Assembly: GCA_027487555.1 (NCBI GenBank)
Contig: JAIYDI010000033.1
Coordinates: forward strand, 62,001 to 126,000
Length of the DNA stretch: 64,000 nucleotides
Direction: 5' to 3'
Source: Hyphomicrobiales bacterium
GTDB taxonomy: Bacteria > Pseudomonadota > Alphaproteobacteria > Rhizobiales > Devosiaceae
Notes under the pieces: model-generated
The model's input: the letters and a program-made list of their open reading frames with translations, nothing else
The model's database searches: none
What the model was told of the DNA's origin: nothing
Shown here: positions 8,564 to 17,219 of the stretch, piece after piece
Layout: every line of letters begins with the position of its first letter
Numbering within the stretch: position 1 is the first letter of the stretch
Program-made: the position numbers and the translations under genes

Positions 8564-8720
8564 CAGGGCTGCGCATTTGCGCATCACTGCCCAGATTTTC
8601 ATCGCACGGCTTGGAAAATCCGCAGGGGACTTGAGCGTCTGATTCCGCTTGGGCACTCAACCTTCTGATTTGATTGATGTCCCGGCTTTGGCACAGGGCT
8701 TGCAAATATGCATGCAGAGA

Positions 8721-8832
8721 ACAGGCGCTAGGGTTCCGGCATCGCCATGGTGGCATTGCGACTGGTCCGAGAGCGTCAGCCATGCGGGAGACATCCGTAT
8801 GGGACACGGCGGGACAAAAGCCCGGGAGACCT
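8721..8832 (+). ncRNA. Guanidine-I (ykkC) riboswitch aptamer
   Basis: Three blocks match the ykkC/guanidine-I consensus in order: GCGCTAGGGTTCCG (8726-8739), ACTGGTCCGAGAG (8761-8773) and ACACGGCGGGACAAAAGCCC followed by GGGAGA (8804-8829). It lies about 70 bases upstream of a urea/guanidine-type importer, UAAP1/2 and carboxylase genes, exactly the gene set this riboswitch class controls. Ligand: guanidinium (established for the class). Confidence 0.95.
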
Positions 8833-8899: not shown

Positions 8900-9967
8900 A
8901 TGACCTTCAGCAAATTCGTATCGGCGCTGGCCGTTTCGGCGCTTCTTGTGGGCAGCGCGGGCCACGCCCTCGCCGCGGAGAAGAAAGACTTCAAGGTGGC
9001 CTGGTCGATCTATGTCGGCTGGATGCCCTGGGGCTGGGCCTCGGACAATGGCATCGTGAAGAAATGGGCCGACAAATACGGCATCGCTATCGAGGTGACG
9101 CAGTTCAACGACTATGTGGAGTCGATGAACCAGTACACCGCCGGGGCCTATGACGCGGTGACCCTCACAAACATGGACGGCCTGTCGATCCCCGCCGCCG
9201 GCGGCGTCGACACCACCGCCGTCATCGTCGGCGATTTCTCGGCCGGCAATGACGCGGTGATCCTCAAGGACAAGACCAGCCTTGCCGACATCAAGGGCCA
9301 GAAGGTCAACCTCGTCGAGTATTCCGTGTCGGATTACCTGCTCTCCCGCGCGCTCGAAAGCGTGGGGCTGACTGAGCGTGACGTCTCGATCGTGAACACC
9401 TCCGACCCCGACATGGTCGGCGCCTTCCAGACTGCCGATGTGACGGCGATGGTGACCTGGAACCCGATGGTCTCCGAAATCGCCGCTCTGCCAAACGCCC
9501 ACAAGGTGTTCGACTCGGCGCAGATTCCCGGCGAGATCATCGACCTGATGGTCGCCAATACCGAGGTGCTGAAGGACAACCCGAGCTTCGGCAAGGCGCT
9601 GGTCGGCATCTGGTATGACACAATGGCCGTCATGACCTCCGATACCGCGGAAGGCGCTGCCGCCCGCGCCGCGATGGGCGCCGCCTCGGGCACCGACCAG
9701 GCCGGGTTCGAAAGCCAGCTCGCGGCAACCAAGCTGTTCCCCACCGCGGCCGAGGCCGTGGCCTTCACCACCTCGCCAGAGCTGAAGGGTACAATGGACA
9801 AGGTGCGGAACTTCCTCTTCGTCAAGGGCCTGCTTGGCTCCGGCGCGGCCTCGCCCGACTTCATCGGCATCGAGTTGCCCGACGGCTCGATCCTCGGCGA
9901 CAGCGCCAACGTCAAGCTGCGCTTTACGGCGGAGTACATGAAGGCCGCCGCCGACGGGGCACTCTGA
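8900..9967 (+). CDS. ABC transporter substrate-binding protein, putative guanidine (annotated urea) importer
   Basis: A 355-residue NMT1/THI5-like binding protein with signal peptide (1-25, ending GHALAA) and the start of the mature protein KVAWSIYVGWMPWGW. Proteins of this kind next to urea carboxylase genes are usually named urea ABC transporter binding protein. Under a guanidine riboswitch, with deiminase genes in the same operon, guanidine is the more likely ligand (inference). The frame is open back to 8747 inside the riboswitch; the ATG at 8900 is chosen for its AGGGGA site and signal peptide. A GC-rich hairpin follows the stop. Confidence 0.88.
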   Translation: MTFSKFVSALAVSALLVGSAGHALAAEKKDFKVAWSIYVGWMPWGWASDNGIVKKWADKYGIAIEVTQFNDYVESMNQYTAGAYDAVTLTNMDGLSIPAAGGVDTTAVIVGDFSAGNDAVILKDKTSLADIKGQKVNLVEYSVSDYLLSRALESVGLTERDVSIVNTSDPDMVGAFQTADVTAMVTWNPMVSEIAALPNAHKVFDSAQIPGEIIDLMVANTEVLKDNPSFGKALVGIWYDTMAVMTSDTAEGAAARAAMGAASGTDQAGFESQLAATKLFPTAAEAVAFTTSPELKGTMDKVRNFLFVKGLLGSGAASPDFIGIELPDGSILGDSANVKLRFTAEYMKAAADGAL

Positions 9968-10017: not shown

Positions 10018-10836
10018 ATGCGCTTCATCAATCTCAAGCCCAGCCGCACGACGCAGCTGATGCTGGCTGTCCTGCCCTTCGCCCTGCTCGTCATCGCCTA
10101 TGGCGTGGGCTCGGTGGTGCGGCTTGCCGAGAACCCGTCCGACAAGCTGCTCCCGGCGTTCGCGAGCCTTGTCGACGCCATCAACCGCATGGCCTTTACC
10201 GCTGATGTGCGCAGCGGCGAGTATCTGTTCTGGGCCGATACCCTCGCAAGCCTCGGCCGCCTTGGCATGGCGCTCGGCATCGCCACGGCCATCGCGCTGG
10301 TTTTCGGCATGCTGGTCGGCATGTTCCCCTATATCCGTGCGCTGCTCGCGCCGTTCCTTGCCGCCATCTCGATGGTGCCGCCTCTGGCGCTTTTGCCCAT
10401 CCTGTTCATCGCGCTCGGCCTTGGGGAAACCAGCAAGGTCACCCTCATCGTCATCGGCATCGCCCCGATCATGGTGCGCGATCTGGTGCTGCGCGTGCTC
10501 GACCTGCCGCGTGAACAGCTGATCAAGGCGCAGACACTCGGCGGTTCCTCCTGGCAGATCGGCATCCGGGTCGTGCTGCCACAGATCCTGCCGCGCCTCA
10601 TCGACGGGCTCAGGCTGCAGCTCGGCTCTGCCTGGCTGTTCCTCATCGCCGCCGAAGCGATCTCCGCCGACTCCGGGCTCGGCTACCGCATCTTCCTCGT
10701 CCGCCGCTATCTGTCGATGGACGTGATCTTCCCCTATGTGGCGTGGATCACGCTGCTTGCCGTCGTGGCGAACGTCGCTCTCGACCTGCTGCGCAGGCGG
10801 GTCTTTCCGTGGACCGAACTGGGCAAGGCGACATGA
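10018..10836 (+). CDS. ABC transporter permease (SsuC/TauC type), guanidine importer
   Basis: A 272-residue inner-membrane protein of the nitrate/sulfonate/taurine permease family. It has about six transmembrane helices and the cytoplasmic loop REQLIKAQTLGGSSWQIGI. The start has a GGAGG site. The end overlaps the ATPase gene by four bases. It forms the channel of the importer whose binding protein is encoded upstream. Confidence 0.9.
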   Translation: MRFINLKPSRTTQLMLAVLPFALLVIAYGVGSVVRLAENPSDKLLPAFASLVDAINRMAFTADVRSGEYLFWADTLASLGRLGMALGIATAIALVFGMLVGMFPYIRALLAPFLAAISMVPPLALLPILFIALGLGETSKVTLIVIGIAPIMVRDLVLRVLDLPREQLIKAQTLGGSSWQIGIRVVLPQILPRLIDGLRLQLGSAWLFLIAAEAISADSGLGYRIFLVRRYLSMDVIFPYVAWITLLAVVANVALDLLRRRVFPWTELGKAT

Positions 10837-11678
10837 TCCGCGTCGAGAATGTCTGGAAGGAATATGGCGAGCAGGTCGTGCTCGAGCGCATTTCGCTCGA
10901 TATCGCCGACCGCGCCTTCGTCGCCCTGGTCGGGCCATCGGGCTGCGGCAAGACGACGTTCCTGAAGCTCCTGCTCGGCGAGGAGCAGCCCAGCGAGGGC
11001 AGGATCACCCTCGATGGCCAGCCGCTGGCGCCCGAGCCGACGCCCGAGCGCGGCGTGGTGTTCCAGCGCTATTCGGTGTTCCCGCACCTCTCGGTACTCG
11101 ACAATGTGCTGATCGGCCGCGATTTTTCCGGCTCGCCCTTCCGTGGCCGGCTCGGCCGGGTCTCGCGTCGCGCCGCAGCCGATGAAGCCCGCGCGCTCAT
11201 CGCCGAAGTTGGGCTCTCGGGCAACGAGGACAAATATCCGGCGCAGTTGTCGGGCGGCATGCAGCAGCGGCTGGCGCTCGCGCAGGCGCTGATCATGCGG
11301 CCACGCGTCTTGCTGCTCGACGAGCCCTTCGGGGCGCTCGACCCCGGCATTCGCGCCGATATCCACGTCTTGATGAAGCGGCTCTGGAACGAGACCGATT
11401 TGACCGTGGTGATGGTGACGCACGATATGCGCGAGGCCTTCACGCTTGCGACCCGCGTCATCGCCTTCGAGCGGCCGCGCAATGCCCCGGCCGATCGGGT
11501 GCGCTATGGCGCGTCGCTCTCGAGCGATATCGCCGTGTGGCCGCCGCGCGTCGCGGGCCTGACCGACCCCGACAGCACGCCCTATACTTTCGCCAGCCCC
11601 GGCGGGGACGACCCCGCCCAAGCCACGGGCCCGCGCCGGGACGACCCGGCTCCCCCACTCGCAGGAGCCAAGCCGTGA
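10833..11678 (+). CDS. ABC transporter ATP-binding protein, guanidine importer
   Basis: A 281-residue ATPase. Walker A is GPSGCGKTT, the Q-loop is VVFQRYSVFPHLS, the signature LSGGMQQRLALAQAL and Walker B VLLLDEPFG. The family is SsuB/TauB/NrtD. The ~60-residue C-terminal tail is rich in Pro, Asp and Gly and has no recognisable domain. The ATG at 10833 overlaps the permease stop, so the longer frame from 10743 is rejected. The stop overlaps the GTG start of the next gene. Confidence 0.93.
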   Translation: MIRVENVWKEYGEQVVLERISLDIADRAFVALVGPSGCGKTTFLKLLLGEEQPSEGRITLDGQPLAPEPTPERGVVFQRYSVFPHLSVLDNVLIGRDFSGSPFRGRLGRVSRRAAADEARALIAEVGLSGNEDKYPAQLSGGMQQRLALAQALIMRPRVLLLDEPFGALDPGIRADIHVLMKRLWNETDLTVVMVTHDMREAFTLATRVIAFERPRNAPADRVRYGASLSSDIAVWPPRVAGLTDPDSTPYTFASPGGDDPAQATGPRRDDPAPPLAGAKP

Positions 11679-12487
11679 GCCGCACACCAGAGCAGATCGC
11701 CGCCGATCGCGCGCGTTACGAGGAACATCAGCGGAAGGGGCTGCAATCTGCCCCTCGCGCCCTGCCCCCGCCGAGCGCCCTGCCAGCGCCACCCATCGCC
11801 GACCCGCTGCATGTCGAGGTCATTCCCGGCGGCTGGTACTGGTGGGTCCGGCTTCAGAAGGGCGAGATGCTGCGCATCCAGCAGTCGCATGGGCCGGCCA
11901 CGGTCGCGCTCGTCGCGTGGAGCGCCGCCGATCCGAGCGAACGTCTCAACCTGCCCGATACGGTGAAGGTGCAGTGGAACACGCTGATCCAGAAGGGCCG
12001 CGTGCTCTTCTCCGACATGGGCCGCGTGCTGCTCTCGGTCACCGAGGATTCGACCGGCGGCGCGCATGACGTGCTGATGGGTGGCTCTACCGCCCTCTCG
12101 AACGCCGCGCGCTACACTGGCACCACCCGCAATACCCGCGACAATCTCGTGCTCCTGGCCGGCAAGCTCGGGCTCACCCGCCGCGATATTCCCTTGGCAT
12201 TGAGCCTCTTCGCGCCGGTGCGCGTCGGCGACGATGAAACGCTCGGCTGGCAGCCCGCGCTGCTCGATCCGGCCTCCGGACATTTCGTCGAGCTCCGCGC
12301 CGAGATGGACCTGCTCGTCGGGCTTTCCAACTGCCCGCATCCGCTCGATCCGAACCCGGATTATGCGTCCGCCCCGGTCACCATCACGCGTGTCGCAGCG
12401 AAGCCCGTGCCGCCCGACGATCCGTGCCGCACTGCCAGTGCCGAAGCCATTCGTGGCTTCGAAAACAACGCCCTCGCGGAGGCCTGA
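11675..12487 (+). CDS. UAAP1: carboxyguanidine deiminase-type subunit (DUF1989 family)
   Basis: A 270-residue protein of the urea amidolyase-associated/urea carboxylase-associated family. It has a DUF1989-like core (GGWYWWVRLQKGEMLRI to LSNCPHPLDPNPDY), including one cysteine in the conserved SNCPHP motif. Work on homologous pairs showed that together they deiminate carboxyguanidine to allophanate and ammonia; older urea annotations are misleading. The start is the GTG at 11675, which overlaps the ATPase stop and follows CAGGAG; the upstream frame encodes a non-homologous Pro/Arg-rich stretch. The next gene begins one base after its stop. Confidence 0.88.
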   Translation: MSRTPEQIAADRARYEEHQRKGLQSAPRALPPPSALPAPPIADPLHVEVIPGGWYWWVRLQKGEMLRIQQSHGPATVALVAWSAADPSERLNLPDTVKVQWNTLIQKGRVLFSDMGRVLLSVTEDSTGGAHDVLMGGSTALSNAARYTGTTRNTRDNLVLLAGKLGLTRRDIPLALSLFAPVRVGDDETLGWQPALLDPASGHFVELRAEMDLLVGLSNCPHPLDPNPDYASAPVTITRVAAKPVPPDDPCRTASAEAIRGFENNALAEA

Positions 12488-12488
12488 G

Positions 12489-13112
12489 ATGCGCACCCTA
12501 GAGAACGCCATCCAGAACCATCTGATCCCCGCCGAAGCGCCCTGGTCGGGCCTCGTGAAAACGGGCCAGGTCATCCGCATCATCGACAGCGAGGGCCAGC
12601 AGGCCGTCGACACGCTGTTCTACCGCGCTGACAATTACGCCGAGCGCTATTCGGCGCAGGATACGCTGCGCGTGCAGGGCTCGGCCTATGTCGGAGTGGG
12701 CACGAAAATCGTCTCCAACGAAGGCAATGTCATGCTGACGGTTACGGCCGACAGCTGCGGCCGCCACGACACCATGGCCGGCGCCTGCTCGTGCGAGAGC
12801 AACATTGTCCGCTTCGGCCACGAGACGCGGTACCTGCACGCCTGCCGCGACAATTTCCTGCTCGAAGTGTCGCGCTACGGCATGGGCAAGCGCGATATCG
12901 TGCCCAATATCAACTTCTTCATGAACGTGCCGATCGCCCCTTCGGGCGTCATGACCATCGTCGATGGCCTCTCGCGCCCCGGCGACCATGTCGAGCTCGT
13001 CGCCGAAATGGACGTGCTCTGCGTCATTTCCAACTGCCCGCAGGTCAACAACCCCTGCAACGGCTTCAACCCGACGCCCATCCAAGTACTGGTCTGGGAG
13101 GGGGAGGAATGA
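12489..13112 (+). CDS. UAAP2: carboxyguanidine deiminase-type subunit (DUF1989 family)
   Basis: A 207-residue DUF1989 protein, partner and paralogue of the one encoded upstream. Cysteines are in DSCGRHDTM, ACSCESN and SNCPQVNNPCNGFNPTPI, as expected for the metal- and substrate-binding part of the pair. Predicted role: conversion of carboxyguanidine, made by the biotin carboxylase encoded downstream, to allophanate. The start at 12489 is one base after the UAAP1 stop, implying coupled translation. The longer frame from 12234 lies inside UAAP1 and is rejected. Confidence 0.9.
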   Translation: MRTLENAIQNHLIPAEAPWSGLVKTGQVIRIIDSEGQQAVDTLFYRADNYAERYSAQDTLRVQGSAYVGVGTKIVSNEGNVMLTVTADSCGRHDTMAGACSCESNIVRFGHETRYLHACRDNFLLEVSRYGMGKRDIVPNINFFMNVPIAPSGVMTIVDGLSRPGDHVELVAEMDVLCVISNCPQVNNPCNGFNPTPIQVLVWEGEE

Positions 13113-13275: not shown

Positions 13276-16200
13276 ATGTTCACCAAAGTCGTGATTGCCA
13301 ACCGCGGCGAGATCGCGGTGCGCATCATTCGCACGCTCCGAAAACTCGGCATCGCATCCGTCGCGGTCTATTCCGATGCCGATCGCTTCACCCGCGCCGT
13401 GGCGCTGGCCGATGAAGCGGTGCGGCTCGGGCCGGCGCCTGCCACCGAGAGCTACCTCGATATCGACGCCGTGATAGCCGCCTGCAAGGCAACCGGCGCA
13501 GAGGCGGTGCATCCCGGTTACGGGTTCCTGTCGGAAAACACCCGTTTCGCCCGCCGCCTCGCCGAGGAAGGCATCGCGTTCATCGGGCCAACGCCCGAAA
13601 ACATCGAAGCCTTCGGGCTCAAGCACACCGCCCGCGAGATCGCGCAGGCGGCGGGCGTACCGCTGCTGCCTGGCACCGGCCTCCTCGCCACGCTCGAGGA
13701 CGCGCTCGCTGCCGCCGAAACCGTCACCTATCCGGTGATGCTGAAATCCACCGCGGGCGGTGGCGGCATAGGCATGTCGCTCTGCGCTGATGCGGCGGCG
13801 CTCAAAGCCGCGTTCGAAAGCGTGCAGCGCACGGCGAAATCCAGCTTCGGCGATGCGCGTGTCTATCTCGAACGCTTCGTCTCCGACGCGCGGCATGTCG
13901 AAGTGCAGATTTTCGGCGACGGCAAGGGCCGCGTCGTGGCGCTCGGCGAGCGTGACTGTTCGCTGCAACGCCGCAACCAGAAGGTGGTCGAGGAGACCCC
14001 CGCGCCCGGCCTCTCCGCCGCGGTGCGCGCCCGCCTGCACGATGCCGCCGTGCGGCTCGGGCAAGCCGTCGGCTACCGCTCGGCAGGTACGGTCGAGTTC
14101 ATCTATGATCCGGTGCGCGAGGAATTCTACTTCCTAGAGGTCAATACCCGCCTGCAAGTCGAGCATCCGGTGACGGAAGAAGTGCTCGGTATCGACCTTG
14201 TCGAGTGGATGATCCGCAATGCGGCGGGCGAGGACGTGATCCCCGCGACCCTGCCCCAGCCGAAGGGCGCGGCCATCGAGGTGCGGCTCTATGCCGAAAT
14301 CCCGCATGCGAGTTTCCAGCCGAGCGCCGGGCTGTTGACCGAGGTCCGCTTCGGCCCCGCCCGCATCGACGGCTGGATCGAGACCGGCACCGAGGTCACC
14401 TCGTACTACGATCCGATGCTGGCGAAGATCATCGTCCATGCCGCGGATCGCCCGGCCGCCATCGCGAAGCTGCGCGCAGCGCTCGCGGAAACCTCGATCT
14501 CCGGCATCGAGACCAATCTCGACTACCTCCGCGCCATCGCCGCCTCCGAGCTGCTGGCCTCGGGCCAGGTGGCCACCACCGCGCTCAGGACCTTCCCCTT
14601 CACGCCCGATGTCATCGAGGTGCTGGTCCCCGGCGCGCAATCGAGCGTGCAGGAACTGCCGGGCCGCCTCGGGCTCTGGCATGTCGGCGTGCCGCCTTCG
14701 GGCCCGATGGACGAAAAGCACTTCCGCCGCGCCAACCGGCTCGTCGGCAATTCCGATACCACCACCGCGCTCGAACTCACCGTCAACGGCCCGACGCTGC
14801 GCTTCCATCAGGCGGCGACCGTGGCGCTTGCCGGCGCGACCATGCCGATGCGTCTCGACGGTGTGGCCGTGCCGCATGATGCGGCCGTCAGCATATCGGC
14901 GGGCCAGTTGCTTGCCATTGGCGCTGTCGAAGGGCCCGGCCAGCGGTCCTACCTTGCCATTGAGGGTGGCATCGCCGCGCCCATGGTGATGGGCTCGCGC
15001 GCCACCTTCGCGCTCGGGCAGTTCGGCGGCCACGCCACCGGCACGCTCCGCACCGGCGATGTGCTGCACATGGCCCGCGCCCCGCAATCTGCGGAGCCGG
15101 TTTCGGCCCCTGAGCCCCTTACCCGCGAGTGGCAGATCGGCGTGGTCTATGGCCCGCATGGCGCGCCGGATTTCTTTCTCGACGACGATATCGAGACGCT
15201 CTTCTCAACGGCCTACGAGGTGCATTTCAACTCGGCGCGCACCGGCGTCCGGCTCATGGGTCCGGCCCCGAAATGGGCGCGGCGCGACGGTGGCGAGGCG
15301 GGGCTGCATCCCTCGAACCTCCACGACAATGCCTATGCCATCGGCGCCATCGATTTCACCGGCGACATGCCGATCATTTTGGGCCCTGATGGTCCGAGCC
15401 TTGGCGGCTTCGTCTGCCCGGCGGTGATCGCGCGCGACGAGTTGTGGAAAATGGGGCAGCTAAAGCCCGGCGACAGCGTGCGCTTCGTGCCCATTGCCCG
15501 GCCCGGGGATGCCTTGGCCGGCCCCGCCGTACACCGCTTCAGGGAGGCGCAATCGGCGATCGTCGGCCGGCGCGACGATGGGCCGGTACCGGTGGTCTAT
15601 CGCCGGCAGGGCGACGACAATCTGCTCGTCGAATATGGCGACATGCGCCTCGATATCGCGCTGCGCCTCAGGGTGCAGAAGCTGATGGAGGCCCTGCGCG
15701 CCGAGGCGCCTGACCTCGCCATCGATCTCACCCCCGGCATCCGCTCGCTCCAGATCCACTACGATGGCACCTCGCTCGGCCGCGGCCGCCTGCTCGGGCT
15801 GCTTGGTGAGATCGAGCAATCGCTGCCGCCCGCCGAAGCCATGTCCGTGCCGAGCCGCATCGTGCATCTGCCGTTGTCGTGGGATGACCCCGAGGCGCAG
15901 CTCGCCATGCGGAAATATCAGGAGCTGGTGCGCCCCAACGCGCCCTGGTGCCCGGACAATATCGATTTCATCCGCCGCATCAACGGCTTGCCCTCCCGCG
16001 AGGCCGTGCAGCAGACCATTTTCGATGCGTCCTATCTGGTGCTGGGTTTGGGCGATGTTTATCTCGGCGCGCCGGTCGCCACCCCCACCGATCCGCGCCA
16101 CCGGCTCGTCACCACCAAGTACAACCCAGCCCGCACCTGGACCCCTGAAAACGCCGTCGGCATCGGCGGGGCCTATATGTGCATCTACGGCATGGAAGGT

Positions 16201-16806
16201 CCGGGCGGCTACCAGCTGTTCGGCCGGACGATTCAAGTCTGGAACACCTGGCGGCAGACACCAGTCTTCGGGCCCGGCAAGCCCTGGCTGCTCGATTTCT
16301 TCGATCAGGTGCGGTTCTTCCCCGTCTCGCATGACGAGTTGATGGATGCCCGCGCCGCCTTCCCGCATGGCGCCTATCCGATCCGCATCGAGGAGACGCA
16401 GTTCCGCTATGCCGATTATGCCGCCGAGCTCGCGCGCAATTCGGGCGCCATCTCGGCCTTCAAGGCGGGCCAGCAATCGGCCTTCGAGGCCGAGCGCCAG
16501 CGCTGGAAGGACGAGGGGCTCGACAGCTTCACCGTCGACGATCGTGCCATCGCCATCTCCGACGACGCGGTGCCTCCGGGCCATTCGGGCATCGAAAGCG
16601 CTGTGCCGGGCAATATCTGGAAGATCCTCGTTGCCGAGGGCGACAGCGTCGCTGCCGGCCAGCCCGTCGCCATCATCGAGTCCATGAAAATGGAAATTAC
16701 CCTCGCCGCGCGGGAAGCCGGCACCATCCGGCAATTGCGCGCCGGTCCCGGCCGAAACATCAAGGCTGGCGACATCATCATGATCATGGAGAACCAACAA
16801 CAATGA
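13276..16806 (+). CDS. Biotin-dependent urea/guanidine carboxylase
   Basis: A 1176-residue multidomain enzyme, normal for bacterial urea carboxylases. The biotin carboxylase part (N-terminal, ATP-grasp and C-terminal subdomains) covers about 1-450. Then come the two carboxyltransferase parts related to KipA/allophanate hydrolase subunit 2 (about 455-770) and subunit 1/KipI (about 790-1060). The biotinyl domain has the ESMKME motif with biotin-accepting Lys1138. It carboxylates urea-like nitrogen compounds with ATP and bicarbonate. The guanidine riboswitch and UAAP1/2 genes argue that guanidine is the natural substrate, giving carboxyguanidine (inference supported by work on homologues). Its stop overlaps the next start (ATGA). 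Confidence 0.93.
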   Translation: MFTKVVIANRGEIAVRIIRTLRKLGIASVAVYSDADRFTRAVALADEAVRLGPAPATESYLDIDAVIAACKATGAEAVHPGYGFLSENTRFARRLAEEGIAFIGPTPENIEAFGLKHTAREIAQAAGVPLLPGTGLLATLEDALAAAETVTYPVMLKSTAGGGGIGMSLCADAAALKAAFESVQRTAKSSFGDARVYLERFVSDARHVEVQIFGDGKGRVVALGERDCSLQRRNQKVVEETPAPGLSAAVRARLHDAAVRLGQAVGYRSAGTVEFIYDPVREEFYFLEVNTRLQVEHPVTEEVLGIDLVEWMIRNAAGEDVIPATLPQPKGAAIEVRLYAEIPHASFQPSAGLLTEVRFGPARIDGWIETGTEVTSYYDPMLAKIIVHAADRPAAIAKLRAALAETSISGIETNLDYLRAIAASELLASGQVATTALRTFPFTPDVIEVLVPGAQSSVQELPGRLGLWHVGVPPSGPMDEKHFRRANRLVGNSDTTTALELTVNGPTLRFHQAATVALAGATMPMRLDGVAVPHDAAVSISAGQLLAIGAVEGPGQRSYLAIEGGIAAPMVMGSRATFALGQFGGHATGTLRTGDVLHMARAPQSAEPVSAPEPLTREWQIGVVYGPHGAPDFFLDDDIETLFSTAYEVHFNSARTGVRLMGPAPKWARRDGGEAGLHPSNLHDNAYAIGAIDFTGDMPIILGPDGPSLGGFVCPAVIARDELWKMGQLKPGDSVRFVPIARPGDALAGPAVHRFREAQSAIVGRRDDGPVPVVYRRQGDDNLLVEYGDMRLDIALRLRVQKLMEALRAEAPDLAIDLTPGIRSLQIHYDGTSLGRGRLLGLLGEIEQSLPPAEAMSVPSRIVHLPLSWDDPEAQLAMRKYQELVRPNAPWCPDNIDFIRRINGLPSREAVQQTIFDASYLVLGLGDVYLGAPVATPTDPRHRLVTTKYNPARTWTPENAVGIGGAYMCIYGMEGPGGYQLFGRTIQVWNTWRQTPVFGPGKPWLLDFFDQVRFFPVSHDELMDARAAFPHGAYPIRIEETQFRYADYAAELARNSGAISAFKAGQQSAFEAERQRWKDEGLDSFTVDDRAIAISDDAVPPGHSGIESAVPGNIWKILVAEGDSVAAGQPVAIIESMKMEITLAAREAGTIRQLRAGPGRNIKAGDIIMIMENQQQ

Positions 16807-17219
16807 CCACCGCACAAAGCGAGACCATGATCCCGATCGTCGTCGTCGGGGCCCACCTCACCGGGCTGCCGCTCAATCACGAATTGTCGGGCAACGGCGG
16901 GCAGATGCTGAAAGCCGCGCGCACCGCGGCCGATTACCGGCTCTTCGCACTCGCCAATACCGTGCCGCCCAAGCCCGGCATGGTGCGCGAGCCGGGCTTT
17001 GCCGGGCCAGGGCTCGAAGTCGAGGTCTGGGCGCTGCCTGCCGATGCCTTCGGGCGCTTCGTGGCGAAAATCCCGGCGCCGCTCGGCATCGGCAAGGTCA
17101 CGCTCGAGGATGGCACAAGCCATTCGGGCTTCCTCTGCGAGGCCCATGCGGTGGACTCATCCACGGAAATCACCAGCTTCGGCGGCTGGCGCGCTTACCT
17201 GAAGTCGCTGCAGGGGTAG
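16803..17219 (+). CDS. Free-standing allophanate hydrolase C-terminal domain
   Basis: A 138-residue protein that resembles only the C-terminal domain of allophanate hydrolase (AtzF/DUR1), which has a gamma-glutamylcyclotransferase-like fold. Visible motifs are VVGAHLTGLPLNHEL, YRLFALANTVPPKPGM and FVAKIPAPLGIGKVTLEDG. In the full enzyme this domain decarboxylates the N-carboxycarbamate made by the amidase half. Here the amidase half (about 450 residues) is absent. The gene starts inside the carboxylase stop, so there is no room for it upstream, and nothing amidase-like follows. Either an amidase encoded elsewhere completes the pathway or the domain acts alone. Confidence 0.85.
   Translation: MTTAQSETMIPIVVVGAHLTGLPLNHELSGNGGQMLKAARTAADYRLFALANTVPPKPGMVREPGFAGPGLEVEVWALPADAFGRFVAKIPAPLGIGKVTLEDGTSHSGFLCEAHAVDSSTEITSFGGWRAYLKSLQG

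Follow-up and report, generated by a model that had tools for sequence, protein, structure and literature searches.

The guanidine carboxylase operon in the window (the 64,000-nucleotide stretch of DNA analysed here) ends in the C-terminal domain of allophanate hydrolase (AH) and lacks the amidase half, and the one AtzF amidase found in the same genome is a stand-alone gene on another contig, C19. Judging from synteny and alignment, each of the two loci has lost a different half of the enzyme, the operon the amidase and C19 the C domain, and a two-step enzyme seems to have been split across two sites in the genome. We consider it probable that a fused AH in the operon was reduced to its C domain (AH_C), that the C19 amidase cleaves allophanate and that AH_C finishes the reaction in trans as a separate polypeptide. 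The AH_C-only guanidine operon is a new variant of the known guanidine pathway, and no description of it was found in the literature searched, which included few subscription papers and neither of the two founding guanidine carboxylase papers (Schneider 2020, Sinn 2021).

The gene content of the operon agrees with the guanidine pathway in which the sequence-only reading had placed the orphan domain (Table 1). The guanidine-I aptamer is the sole match to this riboswitch class in the whole genome. UAAP1 and UAAP2 both match PF09347, the family in which, according to the available part of PMC11410670, both carboxyguanidine deiminase subunits are defined. With both subunit models over their cut-offs (Table 1), the operon contains the deiminase pair of a guanidine carboxylase operon. 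The carboxylase carries both signature residues. Its first Asp aligns to Asn1330 of the K. lactis urea amidolyase and the second to position 1584, the two positions at which guanidine carboxylase requires Asp (PMC11410670, within the same available text). A complete AH was absent from the operon in a profile search of the window ORFs, which found AH_C only. We likewise rejected an amidase close to the operon on its contig, C47, where the matches are to AH_C alone. The sub-threshold guanidine-II-like element overlaps the ATPase gene at its end, before UAAP1; guanidine-II matches above the gathering threshold lie directly before UAAP1 in 6/7 related operons searched. In the accessible portions of PMC12508155 and PMC12186494, the operons of Vreelandella boliviensis and Raoultella terrigena share the riboswitch, ABC transporter, deiminase pair, carboxylase and an AH-derived gene with the window operon. 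However, these operons contain a whole AH where the window operon contains the C domain only, and the amidase of the window genome is at another locus, where no guanidine riboswitch was detected.

Table 1. Features of the guanidine operon (window coordinates) and AH-related genes on contig C19
Feature	Position	Strand	Evidence or remark
Guanidine-I riboswitch aptamer	8717..8830	+	RF00442, 78.6 bits (gathering 63)
ABC transporter substrate-binding protein	8900..9967	+	TIGR03427, 534 bits (cut-off 333.9)
ABC transporter permease	10018..10836	+	PF00528
ABC transporter ATPase	10833..11678	+	PF00005
Guanidine-II (mini-ykkC) riboswitch-like element, sub-threshold	11600..11649	+	RF01068, 30.7 bits (gathering 32)
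UAAP1, carboxyguanidine deiminase subunit (start codon inferred)	11675..12487	+	TIGR03425, 256 bits (cut-off 206)
UAAP2, carboxyguanidine deiminase subunit	12489..13112	+	TIGR03424, 330 bits (cut-off 285)
Guanidine carboxylase	13276..16806	+	TIGR02712, 1793.6 bits; signature Asp codons 15352, 16054
Stand-alone AH C-terminal domain, AH_C	16803..17219	+	PF21986, 163.2 bits
Lone AtzF amidase, 430 aa	L009:321-1613 (contig C19)		TIGR02713
Second lone AH_C	C19:30707-31153 = L010:14707-15153		About 29 kb from the C19 amidase

The last frame of the operon is a real ORF with a product of 138 aa. As had been read from the letters, it starts inside the carboxylase stop, with the ATG (16803-16805) overlapping the TGA (16804-16806) as ATGA. 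The AH_C profile PF21986 matches it over positions 2-123 of 123 (E 3.1e-48, cut-off 27). The full-length model TIGR02713 matches it at positions 433-562 of 563 only, with 187.2 bits against a cut-off of 511.05. Because this match is confined to positions 433-562, the ORF encodes the second AH domain alone, not amidase and C domain in one polypeptide, and the proposed orphan AH C-terminal domain of about 138 residues at the end of the operon is upheld. Among positions at least 95% conserved in the aligned fused enzymes, A120S is its sole deviation. The predicted structure (AlphaFold2, pLDDT 85) belongs to the AH C-domain fold, with 4iss, the K. lactis AH C domain (E 5.7e-14, TM 0.86), and 5c5z, c4763 (TM 0.81), as its closest folds. 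We rejected membership in another gamma-glutamylcyclotransferase (GGCT)-like family, a possibility that the sequence-only reading had raised against itself, as Pfam matches AH_C alone and GGCT folds are distant (E about 3e-3).

Thus the window AH_C has C-domain sequence, predicted fold and conserved residues in common with AtzF and AH (PDB 4gyr, 4iss), but its polypeptide is without an amidase domain. Stand-alone AH_C proteins as such are already known. The E. coli AH_C-like protein c4763 (5c5z), a 137-residue chain, has the same stand-alone AH_C fold and shows 35% identity in the fold alignment. A study of the K. lactis AH reportedly found that its C domain decarboxylates N-carboxycarbamate, and by analogy AH_C would act as a decarboxylase in the window operon. 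The N and C domains of allophanate hydrolase catalyse sequential reactions, according to the available text of a structural paper (PMC5770610).

The split first noted in the window recurs in related operons. The named operons surveyed were those of the best 80 of at least 581 carboxylase matches, with Devosia sp. LC5 among the nearest, so the proportions hold for close carboxylases only. The tree contained 85 rows, comprising 79 named operons and L011, L190, L191, L206, L208 and L214. One operon with a fused AH, L108, fell out by the score threshold, while duplicates (L194, L196 and L198), loci with short flanks (L113 and L114) and genomes already included (L115 to L119) were excluded. Across these 85 operons of close carboxylases, a fused AH was found in 60, AH_C only in six, an adjacent amidase and AH_C pair in one (Agrobacterium bohemicum) and neither half in 18; none was amidase-only. 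Four of the 18 are uninformative, as three (L047, L102 and L206) lie at a contig edge and one (L054) is rearranged with its AH upstream. The six AH_C-only operons, which include other genera, are those of the window genome, G003, G011, Xanthobacter tagetidis, Azorhizobium doebereinerae and G378. A guanidine-I riboswitch precedes all five besides that of the window, and the AH_C start overlaps the carboxylase stop or lies within a few bases of it in five of the six. Except for A120S (window) and G32D (G378), the conserved residues are intact in all of them.

Amidase and AH_C are encoded as adjacent separate genes in ten genomes of the survey (genus g34 and others), which form one group at 100/94. 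The halves of AH can therefore evidently be encoded apart. As in the window genome, amidase and AH_C of these pairs are on separate polypeptides, but the two genes adjoin each other instead of lying on different contigs.

The AH_C-only state requires four changes on the carboxylase tree, at least three of which are forced by well supported branches. A single origin of the AH_C-only operons was rejected (p-AU 8e-5, in a quickly built tree that has one long branch, L214). In the AH_C tree, which has 130 columns only and many unresolved forks, a 99/92 branch groups the six AH_C-only domains with 59 of 61 C domains of fused guanidine-operon AHs, and most C domains of other loci fall apart from this side. 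The large group excludes two guanidine-operon AHs (L088 and L091) and takes in L054, L218 and L010, the last being the second lone AH_C of the window genome. Considering that the AH_C-only domains fall on the guanidine-operon side of this branch, they are best read as the remainder of the operon's own hydrolase. The lone AH_C is as constrained as the carboxylase in one pair of relatives, G003 and G011, both with AH_C-only operons (dN/dS 0.080 and 0.081). Comparisons of the window genes with Devosiaceae rows gave 0.22 to 0.40 for AH_C and 0.16 to 0.21 for the carboxylase; these include fused relatives and are rough, as they mostly involve distant sequences with high dS.

The claim that the amidase half is missing thus stands for the operon, but it does not extend to the genome. 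Profile searches of the assembly (4.53 Mb in 52 contigs, 94% complete) identified one lone AtzF amidase, on C19, and no full-length (fused) AH. The C19 protein matches TIGR02713 over model positions 2-422 with 561 bits (558 as protein), above the family cut-off, which was passed in 1 of 14 control genomes. It retains the VKDNID, GGSSSGSA and GTDTAGSG motifs, and so both the Lys and the Ser motifs; we take these three to hold the catalytic Ser-Ser-Lys triad. The sequence-only reading had considered that a full-length AtzF elsewhere under the same riboswitch class would make the operon copy redundant. No such gene was found, and a genome-wide search detected no second guanidine-I riboswitch. No guanidine riboswitch was found in L009 or L010 either, the contig beginning only 320 bases upstream of the amidase.

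Sequence and gene order indicate that the C19 gene descends from a full-length AH. Its sequence shares about 71% identity with the amidase part of the full-length AHs in the same-genus genomes G011, G003 and G008. Regulator, AtzH-like, isochorismatase-family and transporter genes match between the C19 locus and those of G011 and G008, and the AtzE-family neighbour is matched in G008 only (G011 was also compared, and the G003 contig is too short). The alignment to the full-length AHs runs up to the start of the linker that joins their C domain, and the search revealed no AH_C past the amidase stop codon. With this synteny, identity and end at the linker, the C domain has therefore been lost at C19. 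Of the six AH_C-only genomes, the window genome is the only one whose second AH is amidase-only, the other five having a full-length one; amidase-only AtzF genes above the cut-off were also found in four further searched genomes (G067, G068, G467 and G485). The window genome thus illustrates how a two-domain enzyme can lose one domain at one locus and the other domain at a second locus. The reciprocal loss at C19, the second lone AH_C and the recurrence of the split operon in other genera go beyond the sequence-only reading.

An amidase of this kind also has an experimental counterpart. Like the C19 gene, the truncated AtzF known as AtzF467 is an amidase without the C domain, although AtzF467 is a laboratory construct and the C19 amidase a natural loss (PMC3944691, in its available part). 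In the same partial text, AtzF467 has biuret activity equal to that of the whole enzyme, though it is dimeric. As the amidase by itself shows activity in vitro, the contribution of the AH C domain is not obvious. Operons with the C domain only, together with a genome that has the halves at separate loci, make the role of this domain directly testable.

We next asked how amidase loss from the operon relates to the presence of an amidase elsewhere. All 14 searched genomes with an amidase-less operon had one, compared to 11 of 48 with a fused gene (Fisher p 1.5e-7). This test covered 62 rows, of which 14 had lost the amidase (six AH_C-only and eight with neither half) and 48 were fused; it left out 12 of the 60 fused rows, six rows with neither half (L078 and five others) and the adjacent split L092. 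One fused row, L208, comes from a genome that is only 60% complete. When three doubtful fused rows were counted as having a second amidase (14/48), p was 1.4e-6. Of seven phylogenetically independent pairs, 4.9 agreed on average and none disagreed (median sign-test p 0.06), while the AH_C-only operons alone provided three independent pairs and no power. Two alternatives had been proposed at the outset, a separate amidase working in trans with the stand-alone second domain, or removal of allophanate by other means. The lone AtzF amidase and its association with amidase loss support the first of these better, and we infer the trans action itself.

In this scheme, the carboxylase would convert guanidine to carboxyguanidine, which UAAP1/UAAP2 would convert to allophanate. 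The C19 AtzF amidase would then act in trans to yield N-carboxycarbamate, from which the operon AH_C would release carbamate and CO2. The C19 amidase would in this way serve the guanidine pathway, and the two proteins may act in sequence or in complex. The main difficulty for this scheme lies in the relatives, as a full-length AH is encoded elsewhere in G003, G011, X. tagetidis and A. doebereinerae (G061 and G062), and G378. Retention of AH_C in these five is therefore not explained by completing an amidase alone, and this leaves room for an amidase-independent role of AH_C.

Such a role could be a separate function in the guanidine pathway, in which AH_C, for example, decarboxylates allophanate to urea for urease, or stabilises or organises the carboxylase or the deiminase. 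Besides the retention of AH_C next to a full-length AH elsewhere in the five relatives, this would account for at least three operon lineages having kept AH_C and lost the amidase with no amidase-only operon among those of the 85 close carboxylases, and for a selection on the lone AH_C that equals that on the carboxylase in the one pair. Outside guanidine operons, moreover, there are also lone AH_C frames that have no AtzF amidase next to them. Urease was found in 8/8 genomes searched, so allophanate could also go via urea, and the window genome has two urease alpha subunit genes (G000:C4:520725-522419, 977 bits, and C4:287043-288734, 724 bits). Yet if urease were enough, loss of the operon amidase would not be expected to coincide with a further AtzF amidase in the genome, which all 14 genomes have. 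To our knowledge, no AH_C protein acts on allophanate. In a study of 27 Devosia strains, every genome is reported to have urease (PMC6981132), and its presence therefore says little. On balance, we regard a separate job of AH_C as unlikely. We also consider it unlikely that the C domain, rather than the amidase, is the part of AH that the guanidine pathway needs, acting alone, for instance on allophanate that feeds urease or by organising the enzymes. It would then have survived the loss of the amidase on at least three occasions, before the window genome reached the reciprocal loss that divides the two-step enzyme between two loci.

Alternatively, AH_C may be a relic, the amidase having been deleted as redundant beside a second AH and the remaining C domain being decaying or neutral. 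Amidase loss does go with a second AH, neither half is left in 18 of the 85 operons (three of them at contig ends and one with its AH moved upstream), and the higher dN/dS range of the window AH_C than of the carboxylase would allow some relaxation. Against this, dN/dS is low between G003 and G011, the conserved residues persist in the six AH_C-only operons apart from the two substitutions named above, and in five of the six the start codon still overlaps the carboxylase stop or lies only a few bases from it, which makes a relic improbable. That an assembly or sequencing artefact deleted the amidase is hardly credible even for a 52-contig assembly at 94% completeness, as AH_C directly follows the carboxylase in the separate assemblies G003 and G011 and also in X. 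tagetidis, A. doebereinerae and G378, and as the C19 amidase ends with a stop codon and a convergent regulator, away from the contig end.

The preferred reading, a divided AH with its amidase acting in trans, also has a consequence for annotation, because the full-length AtzF model misses the last pathway step in AH_C-only operons. In X. tagetidis and A. doebereinerae, the C domain of the second AH is divergent, on a shared branch of 1.55 and with V15F, F83V, F86L, W129F and P55 missing. This divergence would fit complementation, but both domains have normal Pfam scores (154 and 142 bits), and it is a weak lead.

Several further loci showed unusual AH arrangements or neighbourhoods. Beside the lone amidase, L009:1758-7791 encodes a GntR/FCD regulator, an AtzH-like (HpxZ) protein, an AtzE-family amidase and two isochorismatase-family proteins, one of which is BiuH (biuret hydrolase)-like but below the cut-off; this cluster is perhaps devoted to oxalurate- or biuret-type nitrogen catabolism. 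The second lone AH_C adjoins Rieske-type oxygenase and glutathione S-transferase-like genes but no AtzF amidase. In Devosia sp. Root685 (L054:2140-12537), the gene order is UAAP1, UAAP2, fused AH, transporter genes and a carboxylase without AH behind it, and a further lone AH_C lies about 35 kb past the carboxylase on the same contig (G064:C5:142970). At L218:7251-9030 (G411), the AH appears to be broken over several frames and has a very divergent C domain, and it is probably a decaying gene.
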